DNA of 58,330 bases from assembly GCA_016781505.1 (NCBI GenBank), contig JADDQF010000141.1:1-58330 (forward strand), read 5' to 3'. Both the position numbers and the translations under genes were made by a program. Below, in pieces: positions 26,977-55,204 of this stretch. The notes below the pieces were generated by a model, which worked only from the letters and a program-made list of their open reading frames with translations, made no database searches and had not been told where the DNA came from. Every line of letters starts with the position of its first letter. Positions within the stretch are counted from its first letter, which is position 1. Origin of the DNA: a bacterium (GTDB lineage: Bacteria > Chloroflexota > Chloroflexia > Chloroflexales > Kallotenuaceae).

Positions 26977-28341
<1,365 letters not shown>

Positions 28342-28360
28342 AAGTGGCTCCTTCCGCGCT

Positions 28361-28366
28361 ATTATA
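28361..28366 (-). promoter_or_regulatory. Extended -10 for hflX
   Basis: TGCTATAAT on the minus strand, 20 bases upstream of the hflX ATG; no good -35. Confidence 0.5.
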
Positions 28367-28434
28367 GCATTGACTATCAGCGGTCTTCCACCCGCAGTCT
28401 GCAACAATTTCCGTTCACATCAGGATTGCAGCAA

Positions 28435-28474: not shown

Positions 28475-30901
28475 TTAGCACACAACATTCACGACTTGGC
28501 CCGGCACGACGATCACCCGTGTCGGTTTTTCTCCCTTCAGCACGACCTGGACCTTGGCGCTGGCAAGCGCTAACTGCTCGATGCTGGCGGGTAGGGCGTC
28601 GGCTTCAACCGTAATTCGGTCGCGCACTTTGCCGTTGATCTGCACGGGCAGCTCAATCGTCGCGTCTGGCATGCCTGTGTCATCCGCTACCGGCCAGGGC
28701 TGCTGGTGGACGCTGCCGACGTCGCCCATACGCGACCATAGTTCCTCGGCCAGGTGGGGTGCTAGCGGTGCCAACAACAGCAGCAACGTGCGGAACGTCC
28801 GCTCCCGCTGCGCCTGCTCCAGCTCTGCCACGTGCTCGCGCAGCCAGCCAACCTCCTCCATCAGCGCCGCAAGCGTGACATGAAAGCGCAGCGCTTCGAT
28901 ACCGGCGGCGACACGCGCAATTAATCGCTGTCGGCGGCGCTCGGCCTCAACGGAGATCGGCTGAGGGGGCGACGACGTGGGGTGTTCGGCGGTGAGCAGC
29001 TCCCAGACTCGGCCGGCAAAGCGCGCCACGCCGCCAATCCCGGCGTCGCTGAAATCGCCGCCCTCTTCCCACGGCCCCAGAAAGAGCATATACATGCGGA
29101 AAATATCCGCCCCATACCTGTCCATGTAGCCGTCCGGGGAAATAACATTGCCGCGGCTCTTGGACATCTTCGCGCCATCCTTGGTGATTATGCCATGGAG
29201 CCGCAGCCGCTTGAATGGCTCATCAAACGGCAAGTGCCCGAGATCGTGCAAAGCCTTGACGATGAAGCGGGCGTATAAGTGGTGCATCGTGGTATGCTCC
29301 GGACCACCCGCGTACTGGTCGACGGGCAGCCAGCGCCGGACACGTGGGGGCTGCCAAGGCCGCGTTTGCTCGTCCGTCGAGGTGTAGCGCAGGAAGTACC
29401 AAGCCGAGTCCAGAAAATTATCACTGACATCCGTCTCCCGGCGGGCCGGCCCGCCACAGGCTGGGCAGCTGGTGTTAACAAATTCCTCGACCGACGCTAG
29501 GGGCGCAACACCCGTTGGCCGAAAATTCTCCAAGGGCGGCAACCTGACGGGTAATTGGTCTTCGGGGACTGGTACAGTGCCGCAAACAGGGCAATGGATC
29601 ATGGGGATGGGCGGCCCCCAATAGCGCTGCCGACTGATCAACCAGTCGCGCAGGCGGTAGTTCACACTCGCCTCGCCGGCACCTTGTGCCGTTAGCCATG
29701 CAGTGATCGCGGGCCGGGCATCGGCACTGGACATCCCACTAAAATGCCCGGACCCAATCAGCATCCCGTCTTCAGTAAAAGGCACTGGCTGAGCATCAGC
29801 ATCGTCGGCGCTCCCTGGTTGAACGACCGGCACAATCGGCAGCTCGTGCTCGGTTGCAAAAGCCCAAGCGCGCTCGTCGTGTGCGGGTACGGCCATGATT
29901 GCGCCGTAGCCGTACCGGTGCAACACATAATCGGCGATCCAGATCGGAACACAGCTCCCGGTAGCGGGATTTTGGGCATATGCTCCGGTCCAAACACCCG
30001 TTTCTGCGGTGCTGATCAGGCGTTCGCGCTCCAGCTTGCGCTGGGTTTGGGCGACGTAGGTGTTGACTGCCACCTGCTGTTCAGGCGTCGTGATGGCAGC
30101 AGCTAGTGGGTGTTCGGGCGCCAGCACCAGCGCGGTCACTCCAAAGATCGTGTCCGGCCGGGTTGTGAAAACGGCGATGGATGTGTTGTGGCCGACGACC
30201 GGAAAGCGCACGGTTGCTCCCTCGCTCCGGCCGATCCACGCTGTTTGCCGCTTGATCGAGGCGTCGGGATAATCGACGCCGCTGAAGTCCAGCAGTCGGT
30301 CGGCATAGTGCGTGATGCCCAAAACCCATTGACGCATCATGCGCTGCTCGATGAGCGAGCTACAGCGTTCGCACCGTCCATTGATAACCTGCTCGTTGGC
30401 CAGCACGGTTTGATCTTGCGGACACCAATTAACCGCTGCTTCGGCCTGATAGGCTAAGCCTGCCTTGAACAGCTGCAAAAAAATCCACTGCGTCCAGCGA
30501 TAATAGTCAGGGCTGGTCGTATCGACCTCCCGCGACCAATCGAACTGGCAGCCCAGCCGTTTCAGCTGCTCTTCCCGGAAGCGCCGAATATTCTCGGGAA
30601 CGACAGCGACCGGGTGACGGCCCAGCTTGATCGCATAATTTTCGGAGTGTATGCCAAACGCGTCGAAGCCGATCGGCTGAAACACATCGTAGCCTTGCAT
30701 CCGGCGCAGTCGGCCAAAGGCATCAGCGCCGCAGTAGGTGTACACATGGCCAACGTGCAGACCTTCGCCCGAGGGATATGGAAATTCCATCAAGTTGTAA
30801 AACGGTCGGGCCGCGTGGTCCAGGTCGATGCGATACTGGGCGGTTTGCTCCCAATGGTGCTGCCACTTTGCCTCAATCTCGTGGACGGCATAGCGTGTCA
30901 T
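28475..30901 (-). CDS. leuS: Leucine-tRNA ligase
   Basis: 808 residues. Class I synthetase with FPYPSGEGLHVGHVYTY (HIGH variant HVGH), KMSKSRGN, the CP1 editing domain with FTTRPDTIFGVTALVLAPEH and MAVPAHDERAWAFA, a zinc pair CPVCG/CPACG region, an anticodon domain, and a C-terminal tail (INGKVRDRITV). It charges tRNA-Leu and edits mischarged products. The leader upstream has a promoter, a Leu-rich 25-codon ORF and an intrinsic terminator, so expression is probably tuned by leucyl-tRNA level. A second short reading frame (start 31031, MRYLLAAYNDQ) runs into the leuS start out of frame. Confidence 0.96.
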   Translation of the reverse strand: MTRYAVHEIEAKWQHHWEQTAQYRIDLDHAARPFYNLMEFPYPSGEGLHVGHVYTYCGADAFGRLRRMQGYDVFQPIGFDAFGIHSENYAIKLGRHPVAVVPENIRRFREEQLKRLGCQFDWSREVDTTSPDYYRWTQWIFLQLFKAGLAYQAEAAVNWCPQDQTVLANEQVINGRCERCSSLIEQRMMRQWVLGITHYADRLLDFSGVDYPDASIKRQTAWIGRSEGATVRFPVVGHNTSIAVFTTRPDTIFGVTALVLAPEHPLAAAITTPEQQVAVNTYVAQTQRKLERERLISTAETGVWTGAYAQNPATGSCVPIWIADYVLHRYGYGAIMAVPAHDERAWAFATEHELPIVPVVQPGSADDADAQPVPFTEDGMLIGSGHFSGMSSADARPAITAWLTAQGAGEASVNYRLRDWLISRQRYWGPPIPMIHCPVCGTVPVPEDQLPVRLPPLENFRPTGVAPLASVEEFVNTSCPACGGPARRETDVSDNFLDSAWYFLRYTSTDEQTRPWQPPRVRRWLPVDQYAGGPEHTTMHHLYARFIVKALHDLGHLPFDEPFKRLRLHGIITKDGAKMSKSRGNVISPDGYMDRYGADIFRMYMLFLGPWEEGGDFSDAGIGGVARFAGRVWELLTAEHPTSSPPQPISVEAERRRQRLIARVAAGIEALRFHVTLAALMEEVGWLREHVAELEQAQRERTFRTLLLLLAPLAPHLAEELWSRMGDVGSVHQQPWPVADDTGMPDATIELPVQINGKVRDRITVEADALPASIEQLALASAKVQVVLKGEKPTRVIVVPGQVVNVVC

Positions 30902-31052
30902 GATCGGTGCTCCTGTTACGTAATCTGGCGCGTACGTGTCGGGCCTTTGAACCTTTATGGGTGTGCCGTCGGTTCACAGTGATTGGGCGGCGGACGAGCT
31001 GATCGTTGTAAGCGGCAAGAAGGTAGCGCATATCGGTTCCTTTGCGTGAATC

Positions 31053-31080
31053 AAAAAGCGCCTCCCGCATGGGGAGGCGC
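31053..31080 (-). terminator. Intrinsic terminator in the leuS leader (attenuator)
   Basis: On the minus strand GCGCCTCCC, a 5-base loop, GGGAGGCGC and then TTTTT. The 9-bp GC-rich stem (31058-31066 with 31072-31080) plus U-run is a strong Rho-independent terminator, placed between the leader peptide stop and leuS, 150 bases before the leuS ATG. A terminator in front of a gene read from the same promoter implies conditional read-through. Confidence 0.85.
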
Positions 31081-31113
31081 CACCTCGGCTAATGCTACAC
31101 GTGCGCTACAGCA

Positions 31114-31191
31114 TCAGACTGCCCATGCCAAGTAGCTCCTCATACGGAGGAGTTCGCGGCCGAGGAGCTGGTTGCTGCACGTTGCGTTCAT
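31114..31191 (-). CDS. Leucine-rich leader peptide of leuS
   Basis: 25 codons from ATG 31191 with AAGGA seven bases upstream, starting about 17 bases after the predicted transcription start. Five of 25 residues are Leu: two CTC CTC pairs (QLLGRELLRM) and one TTG. The first CTC CTC lies in AGCTCCTC (31162-31169), which pairs perfectly with GAGGAGCT (31134-31141); the second CTC CTC (31147-31152) competes for the same GAGGAG. So where a ribosome stalls decides which hairpin forms before the downstream terminator. This is the layout of a leuL-type attenuator. Translation is inferred, not shown. Confidence 0.7.
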   Translation of the reverse strand: MNATCSNQLLGRELLRMRSYLAWAV

Positions 31192-31213
31192 ATCGGTCCT
31201 TACGTCTTGGACA

Positions 31214-31242
31214 AGCGTAGCAAGAATCCAAACCAATGTCAA
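31214..31242 (-). promoter_or_regulatory. Promoter of leuS leader
   Basis: Minus strand TTGACA (31237-31242), exactly 17 bp, then TACGCT (31214-31219). It begins 20 bases after the stop of the copper fusion gene. Confidence 0.8.
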
Positions 31243-31261: not shown

Positions 31262-33451
31262 TTAGCGGGCCGCCTGTTGCGCGTCGAGGTAAAACTGACG
31301 GATGTACGTAATCGTCTGCCATATTTGCTCCTCGCTGAGCTGCTCGCCAAATGCTGGCATTGCCGTCCCAGGCTTGCCGCCTTTGATCCAGCCATAAACC
31401 TCGGCGTCGGTGTGGGTCGCGAAGTGTGGCTGGGTGAAATCAGCTGGTAATCCCGGCAACGATTGCGCGGCAGGACCATCTCCTTTGCCGCCAACGCCAT
31501 GGCAGGTCACGCAGCTGCGCTGATACACTGCTTGGCCTGCCGCTAACACCTCCGGCGTTGCGCTCAGAGGGTTGGACGGCTCAGTGGCGCGCGTGAAATA
31601 GTAGGGGCTGACGGCAGCCATAAACGCACCCAGGAGCATGACCACGCTGCCGAGCTGAAAGCGATGCTGCCAGGTATTGCCGAGCGGTAGCTGGCTCAGG
31701 GCCACTCCCAGAAACGCCAGGACCAGAATAAGTGCCCAGACTGGCAGGGTAAATGCTGCCGTACTGGGTGCGCTTGTTGGCGTTGTGTCCACGATAAATG
31801 TGTGACGCACGTCGTTCATGCCAATTGCTCGCACAATCGTCTCGACCTGCCTCGGACCGGGCATAGTGAGCAGCGGCGCGCGCGCTCCCCAGCGGCCGGG
31901 CTCGACCTCACGCAGCTCAAGCTCTTGTTCGCCCATCTGATGCGCTGGCATTGAGACCCTGATCACGACCTCCGGCTGTACATCCGTCGGCAAGCCACGC
32001 GCGGTAACGGCAAAAATGTCGCCAGCCAGATCGTCCCGCGCCACCTGAAGGCTGAGCGCGACATCACGAACGGCGACAGTTTCGGCGAAATCACTGCCTG
32101 TCTGTGCCGCATCACGCGTGGGCGGCGAGGCAGTCAACACACCGACGGCCAGAAGCAGTACCACGCTGAGAGCGACTTCCAGGCCAACGTTAACGCGCAG
32201 CTGCCGCAAACCGGCTCGGCTCAAGGTTGAGGAGGTCACCGATTCGGTTTTGAGCCACCAGCGATTGTACCCGCCGATGAGGAGCAGCGCCCCAAACAGG
32301 AGCAGCTTGATGCTCAGCGCTCGGCCATAGGTTGTTGTCCAGAGCTCGCCGATGCCCACGATATGCCGCAGAGCCGCGATTGTGCCCGTAGCGGCCAAGG
32401 CGATAATGGCGGCGGTTGCCAGGCTGGAGTAGCGTGCCACAAGCAGGGTTACCAACGCGCCATGGAGTTTCCCGCCACGTTTGCGCAGCGCGAGCAACAC
32501 CAGCATCAGGGCGGGCAGCGAGCCGATCCAGGCTGCGGTGGCTACCAGGTGGACGAAGTCGAACGTGACCGCTGCTGCTGTGGCCAATGCGGACAAACTG
32601 GTTGTGCCCGCGGTTTGCGACACGGCACTGTGGCTCAGCAAGCTGATCGTAAGCAACCCGCCCAGGCCAACGAGCAGTGCCCATCGAGAACGGGCAGTGC
32701 CTGCTGTCCTCAGGAGTCCGGCAAGCGCGGCTGCCAGAAGCAGTCGCGCCATCAAGACGAGGCCAATGCGCGAGCCGGTGATCGTGAACAGCAGCGAGCT
32801 TTCAGCAGTGGTGCTGGCCCGCAGCAGCGTTCCCCCTGCTACGATGATGCCGGCTAATGCCGCGCCGAACGCAAGGCGGCGTAGCGCATCGCTCAGCGAC
32901 TCGTACACATCAGCATCTGGTACAAGTTCACTGCGCCAGACTGTTAAACTGAAGATCAGACTGCCGACGGCGAGAACGAGCGACAGGGCCGTGAGCCAAC
33001 GGAGCGCCACGTCTACAGGCGCTGGGGTTGGCAGCGGATCCGGTGGCGGCGGCGGCAAAAGCAATGGTGCGTTGGCTGCGGCTGGATCGCCAACGGCAAA
33101 CGACACCGCGCCCTGCATGGTATGTCCATCGACGGTTGAAAGCGTGCACCATTGGAGTGCATACACACCCTCGGACAGAGCCGGAAGGTCGAGCAGCAGC
33201 ACATACGGGTCGTCGGGCGCTACACGACTCGGATCGGTGCCAACGCTGCCACTTTCCGCACTGCTAAGCACAACGCGGCTGTAGGAGGGGTCCAGCGGCT
33301 CGCTAAACCGTAGTCTAGCCGTCGCCTGAGCCTGGGCAATAACAGAGTTCGCCGCTGGATTTGACTCGACAAGATTGGCGTGCGCCGACGCGCTGCGGGG
33401 CAGCAACGCGAGCAGCACCAAGACACAGCAGAGCAAAAAAGCTTTTTGCAT
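31262..33451 (-). CDS. CopC-CopD-YtkA-cytochrome c fusion
   Basis: 729 residues. A signal peptide (1-23) leaves a mature N-terminal HANLVESNPAANS, whose first His is the CopC copper ligand; the CopC domain ends near 120 with the TVDGHTMQGAVSFAVG motif. A Pro-rich linker leads to a CopD membrane domain of about eight helices (150-450). A YtkA/FixH-like beta domain (about 465-560, VRVSMPAHQMGEQELELREV) follows, then two more helices and a C-terminal class I cytochrome c (CVTCHG, about 645; distal Met in GTAMPAFGEQLSEEQIW). It probably binds or transports copper outside the cell and passes electrons. It is downstream of two other copper-type genes. Confidence 0.85.
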   Translation of the reverse strand: MQKAFLLCCVLVLLALLPRSASAHANLVESNPAANSVIAQAQATARLRFSEPLDPSYSRVVLSSAESGSVGTDPSRVAPDDPYVLLLDLPALSEGVYALQWCTLSTVDGHTMQGAVSFAVGDPAAANAPLLLPPPPPDPLPTPAPVDVALRWLTALSLVLAVGSLIFSLTVWRSELVPDADVYESLSDALRRLAFGAALAGIIVAGGTLLRASTTAESSLLFTITGSRIGLVLMARLLLAAALAGLLRTAGTARSRWALLVGLGGLLTISLLSHSAVSQTAGTTSLSALATAAAVTFDFVHLVATAAWIGSLPALMLVLLALRKRGGKLHGALVTLLVARYSSLATAAIIALAATGTIAALRHIVGIGELWTTTYGRALSIKLLLFGALLLIGGYNRWWLKTESVTSSTLSRAGLRQLRVNVGLEVALSVVLLLAVGVLTASPPTRDAAQTGSDFAETVAVRDVALSLQVARDDLAGDIFAVTARGLPTDVQPEVVIRVSMPAHQMGEQELELREVEPGRWGARAPLLTMPGPRQVETIVRAIGMNDVRHTFIVDTTPTSAPSTAAFTLPVWALILVLAFLGVALSQLPLGNTWQHRFQLGSVVMLLGAFMAAVSPYYFTRATEPSNPLSATPEVLAAGQAVYQRSCVTCHGVGGKGDGPAAQSLPGLPADFTQPHFATHTDAEVYGWIKGGKPGTAMPAFGEQLSEEQIWQTITYIRQFYLDAQQAAR

Positions 33452-54957: not shown

Positions 54958-55028
54958 CAACGTAGCATAGCGCAAACACGCTACGCCTACAGGTGCGCGC
55001 ACCTATAGGGAAGCGGCAATAACGCTAC

Positions 55029-55194
55029 GCGATCTTCTATCATCCGGACTATACCGTCGGCTCTGGCTTTGTACCAGATCCACCGCTCACAACAGGTGAG
55101 ACGGGTCGCGGGCTAAGGCCAAGCTTATCAACCGTTGTGTCAAAGCTTTGCACATCACCGCCGGTCGGGAATCGCACCCTGCCCCGAAAATCGC
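55029..55194 (-). ncRNA. FMN riboswitch (RFN element)
   Basis: Minus strand contains the conserved blocks in order: TTCGGGGCAGGGTG, GATTCCCGACCGGCGGT, AGCCCGCGA, GCGGTGGAT, AGAGCCGACGGTATAG and AGTCCGGATG. Closing stem GCGATTTTC (55194-55186) pairs with GAAGATCGC (55037-55029). The aptamer binds FMN and lies upstream of ribX-ribY with a terminator between, so FMN should switch transport off. Confidence 0.95.
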
Positions 55195-55204
55195 TTATCC
55201 TGAT

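Follow-up and report, generated by a model that had tools for sequence, protein, structure and literature searches.

The second leuS gene and its leader

The window, by which we mean the whole stretch of 58,330 nucleotides analysed here, carries on its minus strand a leucyl-tRNA synthetase gene that is preceded by a short Leu-rich open reading frame (ORF) and an intrinsic terminator. This gene is a second copy, a point missed in the preliminary description of the locus: leuS1 lies on another contig of the same genome (G000) and is 48% identical to the gene in the window, termed leuS2. The features are as follows.

26977-28407, minus strand: hflX, encoding the GTPase HflX (TIGR03156), 67 nt after leuS2
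28475-30901, minus strand: leuS2, second leucyl-tRNA synthetase gene (TIGR00396, 880 bits against a cut-off of 548)
30873-31031, minus strand: uORF2 (MRYLLAAYND..., 52 residues), with an upstream AAAGGA ribosome site and an early CTT CTT pair, overlapping the leuS2 start
31053-31081, minus strand: intrinsic terminator with a GC-rich 10-bp stem, a loop of 5 and a T run, conserved in five leaders
31067-31076, minus strand: region 4, CTCCCCATGC, terminator 5' arm and loop, partner of region 3 by co-variation and own-terminator test
31114-31191, minus strand: uORF1, 25 codons, leader peptide MNATCSNQLLGRELLRMRSYLAWAV, assigned from the sequence and from Leu-run leaders in four orthologs
31116-31114, minus strand: stop codon of uORF1
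31119-31128, minus strand: region 3, GCATGGGCAG, antiterminator 5' arm within the last uORF1 codons, assigned by complementarity, co-variation and own-terminator test
31147-31152, minus strand: second Leu pair CTC CTC (codons 14-15), forming the inner hairpin with GAGGAG (31141-31136)
31162-31167, minus strand: first Leu pair CTC CTC (codons 9-10), region 1, paired with region 3 in the four-leader consensus fold
31201-31197, minus strand: AAGGA ribosome site of uORF1, from the sequence
31214-31242, minus strand: predicted promoter-like TTGACA-N17-TACGCT (TTGACA 31242-31237, 17-nt spacer, TACGCT 31219-31214)
31262-33451, minus strand: upstream gene, ending about 180 nt before the terminator
55028-55195, minus strand: FMN riboswitch; nothing else in the window matches Rfam at the curated threshold

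The elements named in the preliminary description, namely the promoter, the 25-codon ORF with five Leu codons and its own ribosome site, two mutually exclusive hairpins and a strong terminator before leuS, are all present in the minus-strand sequence. The Leu codons of uORF1 comprise two CTC CTC pairs and one TTG, and GAGGAGC (31141-31135) is common to the two alternative hairpins, its partner being either Leu run. The terminator stem (31081-31057), behind which a T run extends to 31053, is the top terminator-like site between 28000 and 35000. Because TACGCT is a poor -10 box (three of six matches), a promoter scan gave no entry at 31242-31214; relatives display at the same place TTGACA-N17-TATGCT (G003) and TTGACA-N17-TATACT (G030).

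Only one leader-type ORF in the 58-kb window combines a ribosome site with clustered Leu codons and a terminator no more than 110 nt away, and ten shuffled versions of the window contain none. Among 125 kb of sequence from other loci, drawn from related genomes and from other contigs of G000, the sole match is the orthologous leader of G030. Single-sequence folding of the window leader is unremarkable (z of -1.1), and the case for the leader therefore rests on its conservation.

The hflX gene possibly belongs to the same transcript as leuS2. An ORF with the same sequence start follows leuS2 in G002, not in G003 or G030, and hence the leader may in this genus also control the ribosome-rescue factor HflX.

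Conservation of the leader among leuS2 orthologs

The leuS2 orthologs share 73% (G001), 72% (G003 and G030), about 66% (G043) and 57% (G064) identity with the window protein. The contig of G001 ends before the leader and the ortholog of G002 is partial; both are outside the leader comparison, which comprises the five leuS2 genes with upstream sequence (G000, G003, G030, G043 and G064, all Chloroflexales-like). The leuS2 gene of G043 (L042) is split into two pieces in different frames, which points either to a faulty assembly or to decay of the gene.

All five leaders consist of an ORF of 25-31 codons with CTC or CTT Leu runs, an intrinsic terminator and a region 3 complementarity. Besides the peptide of the window, the ORFs encode MNRLSHSQLLLVRRLLLVRGFVAWGAATA (G003), MIDKRYNTLLLSLRLLLARGSLAWGA (G030), MPAAHHNQLLLALLLGLAPGSFAWEEA (G043) and MITAQFTTSHNCMLLLTNSEEPFYAGRWQMC (G064). 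The four other orthologs thus keep both ORF and terminator, the opposite of the outcome that had been named as contradicting attenuation, that is, relatives retaining neither. CTC or CTT accounts for 27 of the 30 Leu codons in the five leaders, compared with 26% of the Leu codons in the window's genes, a bias to which RNA pairing may contribute. The genes neighbouring leuS2 differ among the window, G003, G030 and G064, and therefore the leader travels with leuS2. A search of the named genomes yielded no convincing further leader-bearing leuS.

Co-variation and folding of the antiterminator

Region 3 (31128-31119) is complementary to 31076-31067, with one mismatch in the window copy. In the alignment of the five leaders, this ten-bp helix has 90% of its cells paired, versus 49-62% when the partner is slid by one to three columns; in five of the pairs both sides have changed, and none of 500 shuffles reaches the observed covariation score. 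One co-varying pair is A-U in G000 and G003 and G-C in G030 and G043; as one of its bases sits in the terminator loop, terminator pairing cannot explain it. Two positions of the helix are unpaired in G043.

Tested against shuffled sequences, the region 3 duplex reached significance in G030 and G064 alone; in place of these tests, we relied on the co-variation analysis and on a comparison of each leader with its own and with other terminators, one mismatch being allowed. Matching ORF 3' ends to terminators in 25 leuS2 and ilv leaders (the latter described below) gives a mean score of 22.3 for the leader's own terminator, against 18.5 for the terminators of others (permutation p about 5e-5; 1e-4 for the ilv leaders alone). 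Since the species are kin, this test is conservative; several single leaders score no better with their own terminator than in cross-comparisons.

A consensus fold computed from four leaders joins region 3 to the first Leu run, with the inner hairpin of the second Leu run enclosed between them. Region 3 is separated from the second Leu pair by 18 nt and ends 3 nt before the stop codon. Given the usual footprint of a ribosome, the antiterminator arm is covered when the ribosome has reached the stop and exposed when it is at the Leu codons. When folding is modelled with a ribosome on the Leu codons, the antiterminator is the predicted state for G030 and, for G003, at a single stall position. For the window sequence the terminator stays the predicted equilibrium minimum, so that the antiterminator would need to be favoured while the RNA is still being transcribed.

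Proposed switch

The conserved ORF, the terminator and the co-varying antiterminator support ribosome-mediated attenuation, as initially suggested for this site. On the basis of the anatomy, its conservation and the co-variation between regions 3 and 4, we propose, with a probability of roughly 0.9, that the leader is a transcription attenuator that senses leucyl-tRNA through the translating ribosome and controls the second leuS gene; promoter use, stalling, read-through and the leucine signal are what we infer from this arrangement. When leucyl-tRNA is plentiful, the ribosome would reach the uORF1 stop codon and cover region 3, the terminator would form and transcription would end before leuS2. 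Under a shortage of leucyl-tRNA, stalling of the ribosome on the CTC pairs at codons 9-10 or 14-15 would leave region 3 free to pair with the 5' arm and loop of the terminator; the terminator would then not form and leuS2 would be transcribed. If the leader is not translated, the first Leu run is predicted from the consensus fold to hold region 3, making termination the default.

Related leaders before ilvB and ilvD

A covariance model built from four leuS2 leaders and searched in 82 genomes of the order found its training leaders strongly; the G064 leader, too diverged, was not retrieved in this order-wide search. Weaker matches include Leu/Ile/Val-rich leaders before ilvB and, in a Herpetosiphon-like family, before ilvD (dihydroxyacid dehydratase, recognised by eye); others are plain hairpins. 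The leaders found by the model are L165, L167, L168, L170-L173, L175, L176 and L179. In none of the weak matches L164, L166, L169, L174 and L177 does a Leu-rich leader precede a branched-chain gene; they were not counted. Inspection of 50 ilvB upstream regions (L180-L229) revealed Leu/Ile/Val-rich leaders in most, many with a terminator. The window's own genome encodes the ilvB leader MKHLFSNLVSLVLLVLLITEDNLACGRH, which contains, close to its end, the segment TGCGGAAGG, the pairing partner of CCTTCCGCA in the terminator. This family of ilv attenuators is not recognised by Rfam 15.

A second small ORF of 32-36 codons lies about 85-110 bases after the leader stop in the ilv attenuators L181, L188, L198, L165 and L173. 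Its start is hydrophobic and its end is rich in Pro and Val and in Arg, for example MDAIIRKIKELIERLRGPQPLPAPVPVPVRRRR.

The leuS2 and ilvB leaders have a common architecture and can end alike (GSLAWGA in G030, GSLAFGG in G066), as would be expected if leuS2 had borrowed from ilvB a sensor of branched-chain amino acids (Leu, Ile and Val) instead of possessing a leucine sensor. The composition of the peptides makes this highly improbable: the runs in the leuS2 leaders consist of Leu only, and Ile and Val are rare (30 Leu, 2 Ile and 4 Val in total), versus 121 Leu, 43 Ile and 49 Val in 17 ilvB leaders.

The leucyl-tRNA attenuator also has to be weighed against a reading in which the hairpin does no more than terminate the gene at 31262-33451 at its 3' end, the leuS2 promoter lies downstream and the small ORF is accidental. 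The strand of that gene and its short distance to the hairpin would suit such a role; however, G003 and G030 keep leader and terminator despite different upstream genes, and Leu-run ORFs together with the co-varying antiterminator occur in all five orthologs, which renders this explanation scarcely credible.

A T-box before leuS1 and the history of leuS2

A different leucyl-tRNA sensor is predicted at the other synthetase gene of the genome.

L044:10103-10343, minus strand: T-box before the operon ending in leuS1 of G000 (Rfam, 99.2 bits against a threshold of 93)

Its specifier reads GAA-CUC, CUC being a Leu codon, and the operon consists of genes reading as a methyltransferase and an ADP-ribosylglycohydrolase, followed by leuS1. 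G005 likewise has such a T-box, and the Herpetosiphon-like leuS1 has an upstream T-box sequence by motif that is below the Rfam threshold.

At the site before leuS2, neither a T-box (RF00230) nor any Rfam match above chance was detected, in line with the earlier remark that T-box signatures are missing there, and the Rfam Leu_leader (RF00512) matches neither this site nor the related leaders. A T-box or other metabolite-binding RNA at leuS2, to which the predicted T-boxes of leuS1 here and of leuS2-like genes in other Chloroflexota might point, therefore has virtually no chance of being correct, the more so as promoter and terminator are about 150 nt apart and enclose mostly ORF, compared with T-boxes of 240-270 nt in these genomes. 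The two leuS paralogs of one genome are thus probably, as judged from their leaders, under two different leucyl-tRNA sensors, a T-box for leuS1 and a leader peptide for leuS2.

In a tree of leucyl-tRNA synthetases, the leader-bearing leuS2 genes form one clade (SH-aLRT 99), nested in a larger one that also takes in leuS2-like genes from other Chloroflexota and from Gemmatimonadota. Among these leuS2-like genes, those in families f24 and f43 carry T-boxes. In f6, the closest sister, neither leader nor T-box was detected; a T-box at the sister gene of G354 was a loose text match that Rfam did not confirm, and no T-box is therefore claimed for this lineage. Taken from these sequences, a single leuS2 gene lineage appears with different sensors in different groups. 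In several other Chloroflexota, tRNA-Ala genes are located directly upstream of leuS (L158, L159 and L131).

A second small ORF between terminator and leuS2

The preliminary description had also missed uORF2. All five leuS2 genes have a counterpart of it with an early run of Leu codons, the peptides starting with MRYLL, MSCLL, MFCLL or MDWLL and, in G064, having LLL at codon 13. The ORF overlaps the leuS2 start in three of the five and ends 80-104 bases before it in the other two. In folds restricted to nested structures, the C/U-rich Leu codons of uORF2 pair with the leuS2 ribosome site in G003 and G064; elsewhere this pairing is weak or absent. Tentatively, and as a possibility that we regard as rather unlikely, leuS2 may be subject to a two-level leucine gate, with uORF1 acting on transcription via the terminator and uORF2 on translation. 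Such a gate would release the spare synthetase only under a real shortage of leucyl-tRNA, beside a leuS1 controlled by a CUC-reading T-box.

Discussion

The preliminary description placed the leader against the leuL and trpL attenuators of Proteobacteria and expected synthetase genes of Chloroflexota to use T-boxes. The leuS1 operon of the same genome does have a T-box, and leader-controlled leuS has precedents in Streptomyces (PMC1262725, PMC8079986). A survey of 2010 knew leader-peptide attenuation only from Proteobacteria and Actinobacteria, to which it added Firmicutes (PMC2965389). We found no report of such attenuation in Chloroflexota in the open-access literature, outside which most subscription papers lie. 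Leader-controlled leuS and exchanges between T-box and leader peptide (hisS) are already known; what is unusual is the context of two paralogs with two sensors. The proposed leuS2 attenuator extends leader-peptide attenuation to Chloroflexota, where it is apparently a common form of branched-chain gene control across the order.

The closest known counterparts are the candidate attenuators predicted before leuS in Streptomyces (PMC1262725) and leuL2 of S. lividans, MRAVRLLLSEPR, a leader before leuS seen by RNA-seq (PMC8079986). They resemble the leuS2 leader in combining a Leu-run leader peptide with a terminator before leuS; they belong, however, to another phylum, are unrelated in sequence and, in S. 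lividans, comprise a leaderless ORF of 12 codons. The leader described here, unlike those of Streptomyces, stands before a second leuS, and its terminator is followed by another small ORF. Control of a synthetase operon by a leader peptide rich in its own amino acid is also represented by the pheST attenuator of gamma-proteobacteria, which, as far as its citation in PMC1262725 goes, is similar to leuS2 in this principle and differs in amino acid (phenylalanine) and phylum. The LEU element before leuA of Actinobacteria, described as a pseudoknot with no obvious terminator (PMC1262725), has a run of Leu codons that can pair with a downstream ribosome site, as uORF2 might.

In bacilli, a His leader peptide can take over from the T-box at the synthetase paralogs hisS and hisZ (PMC2965389), so that, as here, a leader peptide is found where related genes have a T-box. 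That case concerns histidine and Firmicutes, whereas here the other paralog of the same genome keeps its T-box; the leuS family likewise illustrates how the sensor changes while the gene family stays. T-box leaders (RF00230) respond to the same input, the charging state of tRNA-Leu, and the specifier CUC of leuS1 is the very codon repeated in the leuS2 leader. The T-box binds tRNA directly, whereas the leuS2 leader is devoid of T-box parts and appears to need translation. Two leuS paralogs that are both set to CUC, one by a T-box and one by a leader peptide, thus offer a natural comparison of two sensors of charged tRNA.
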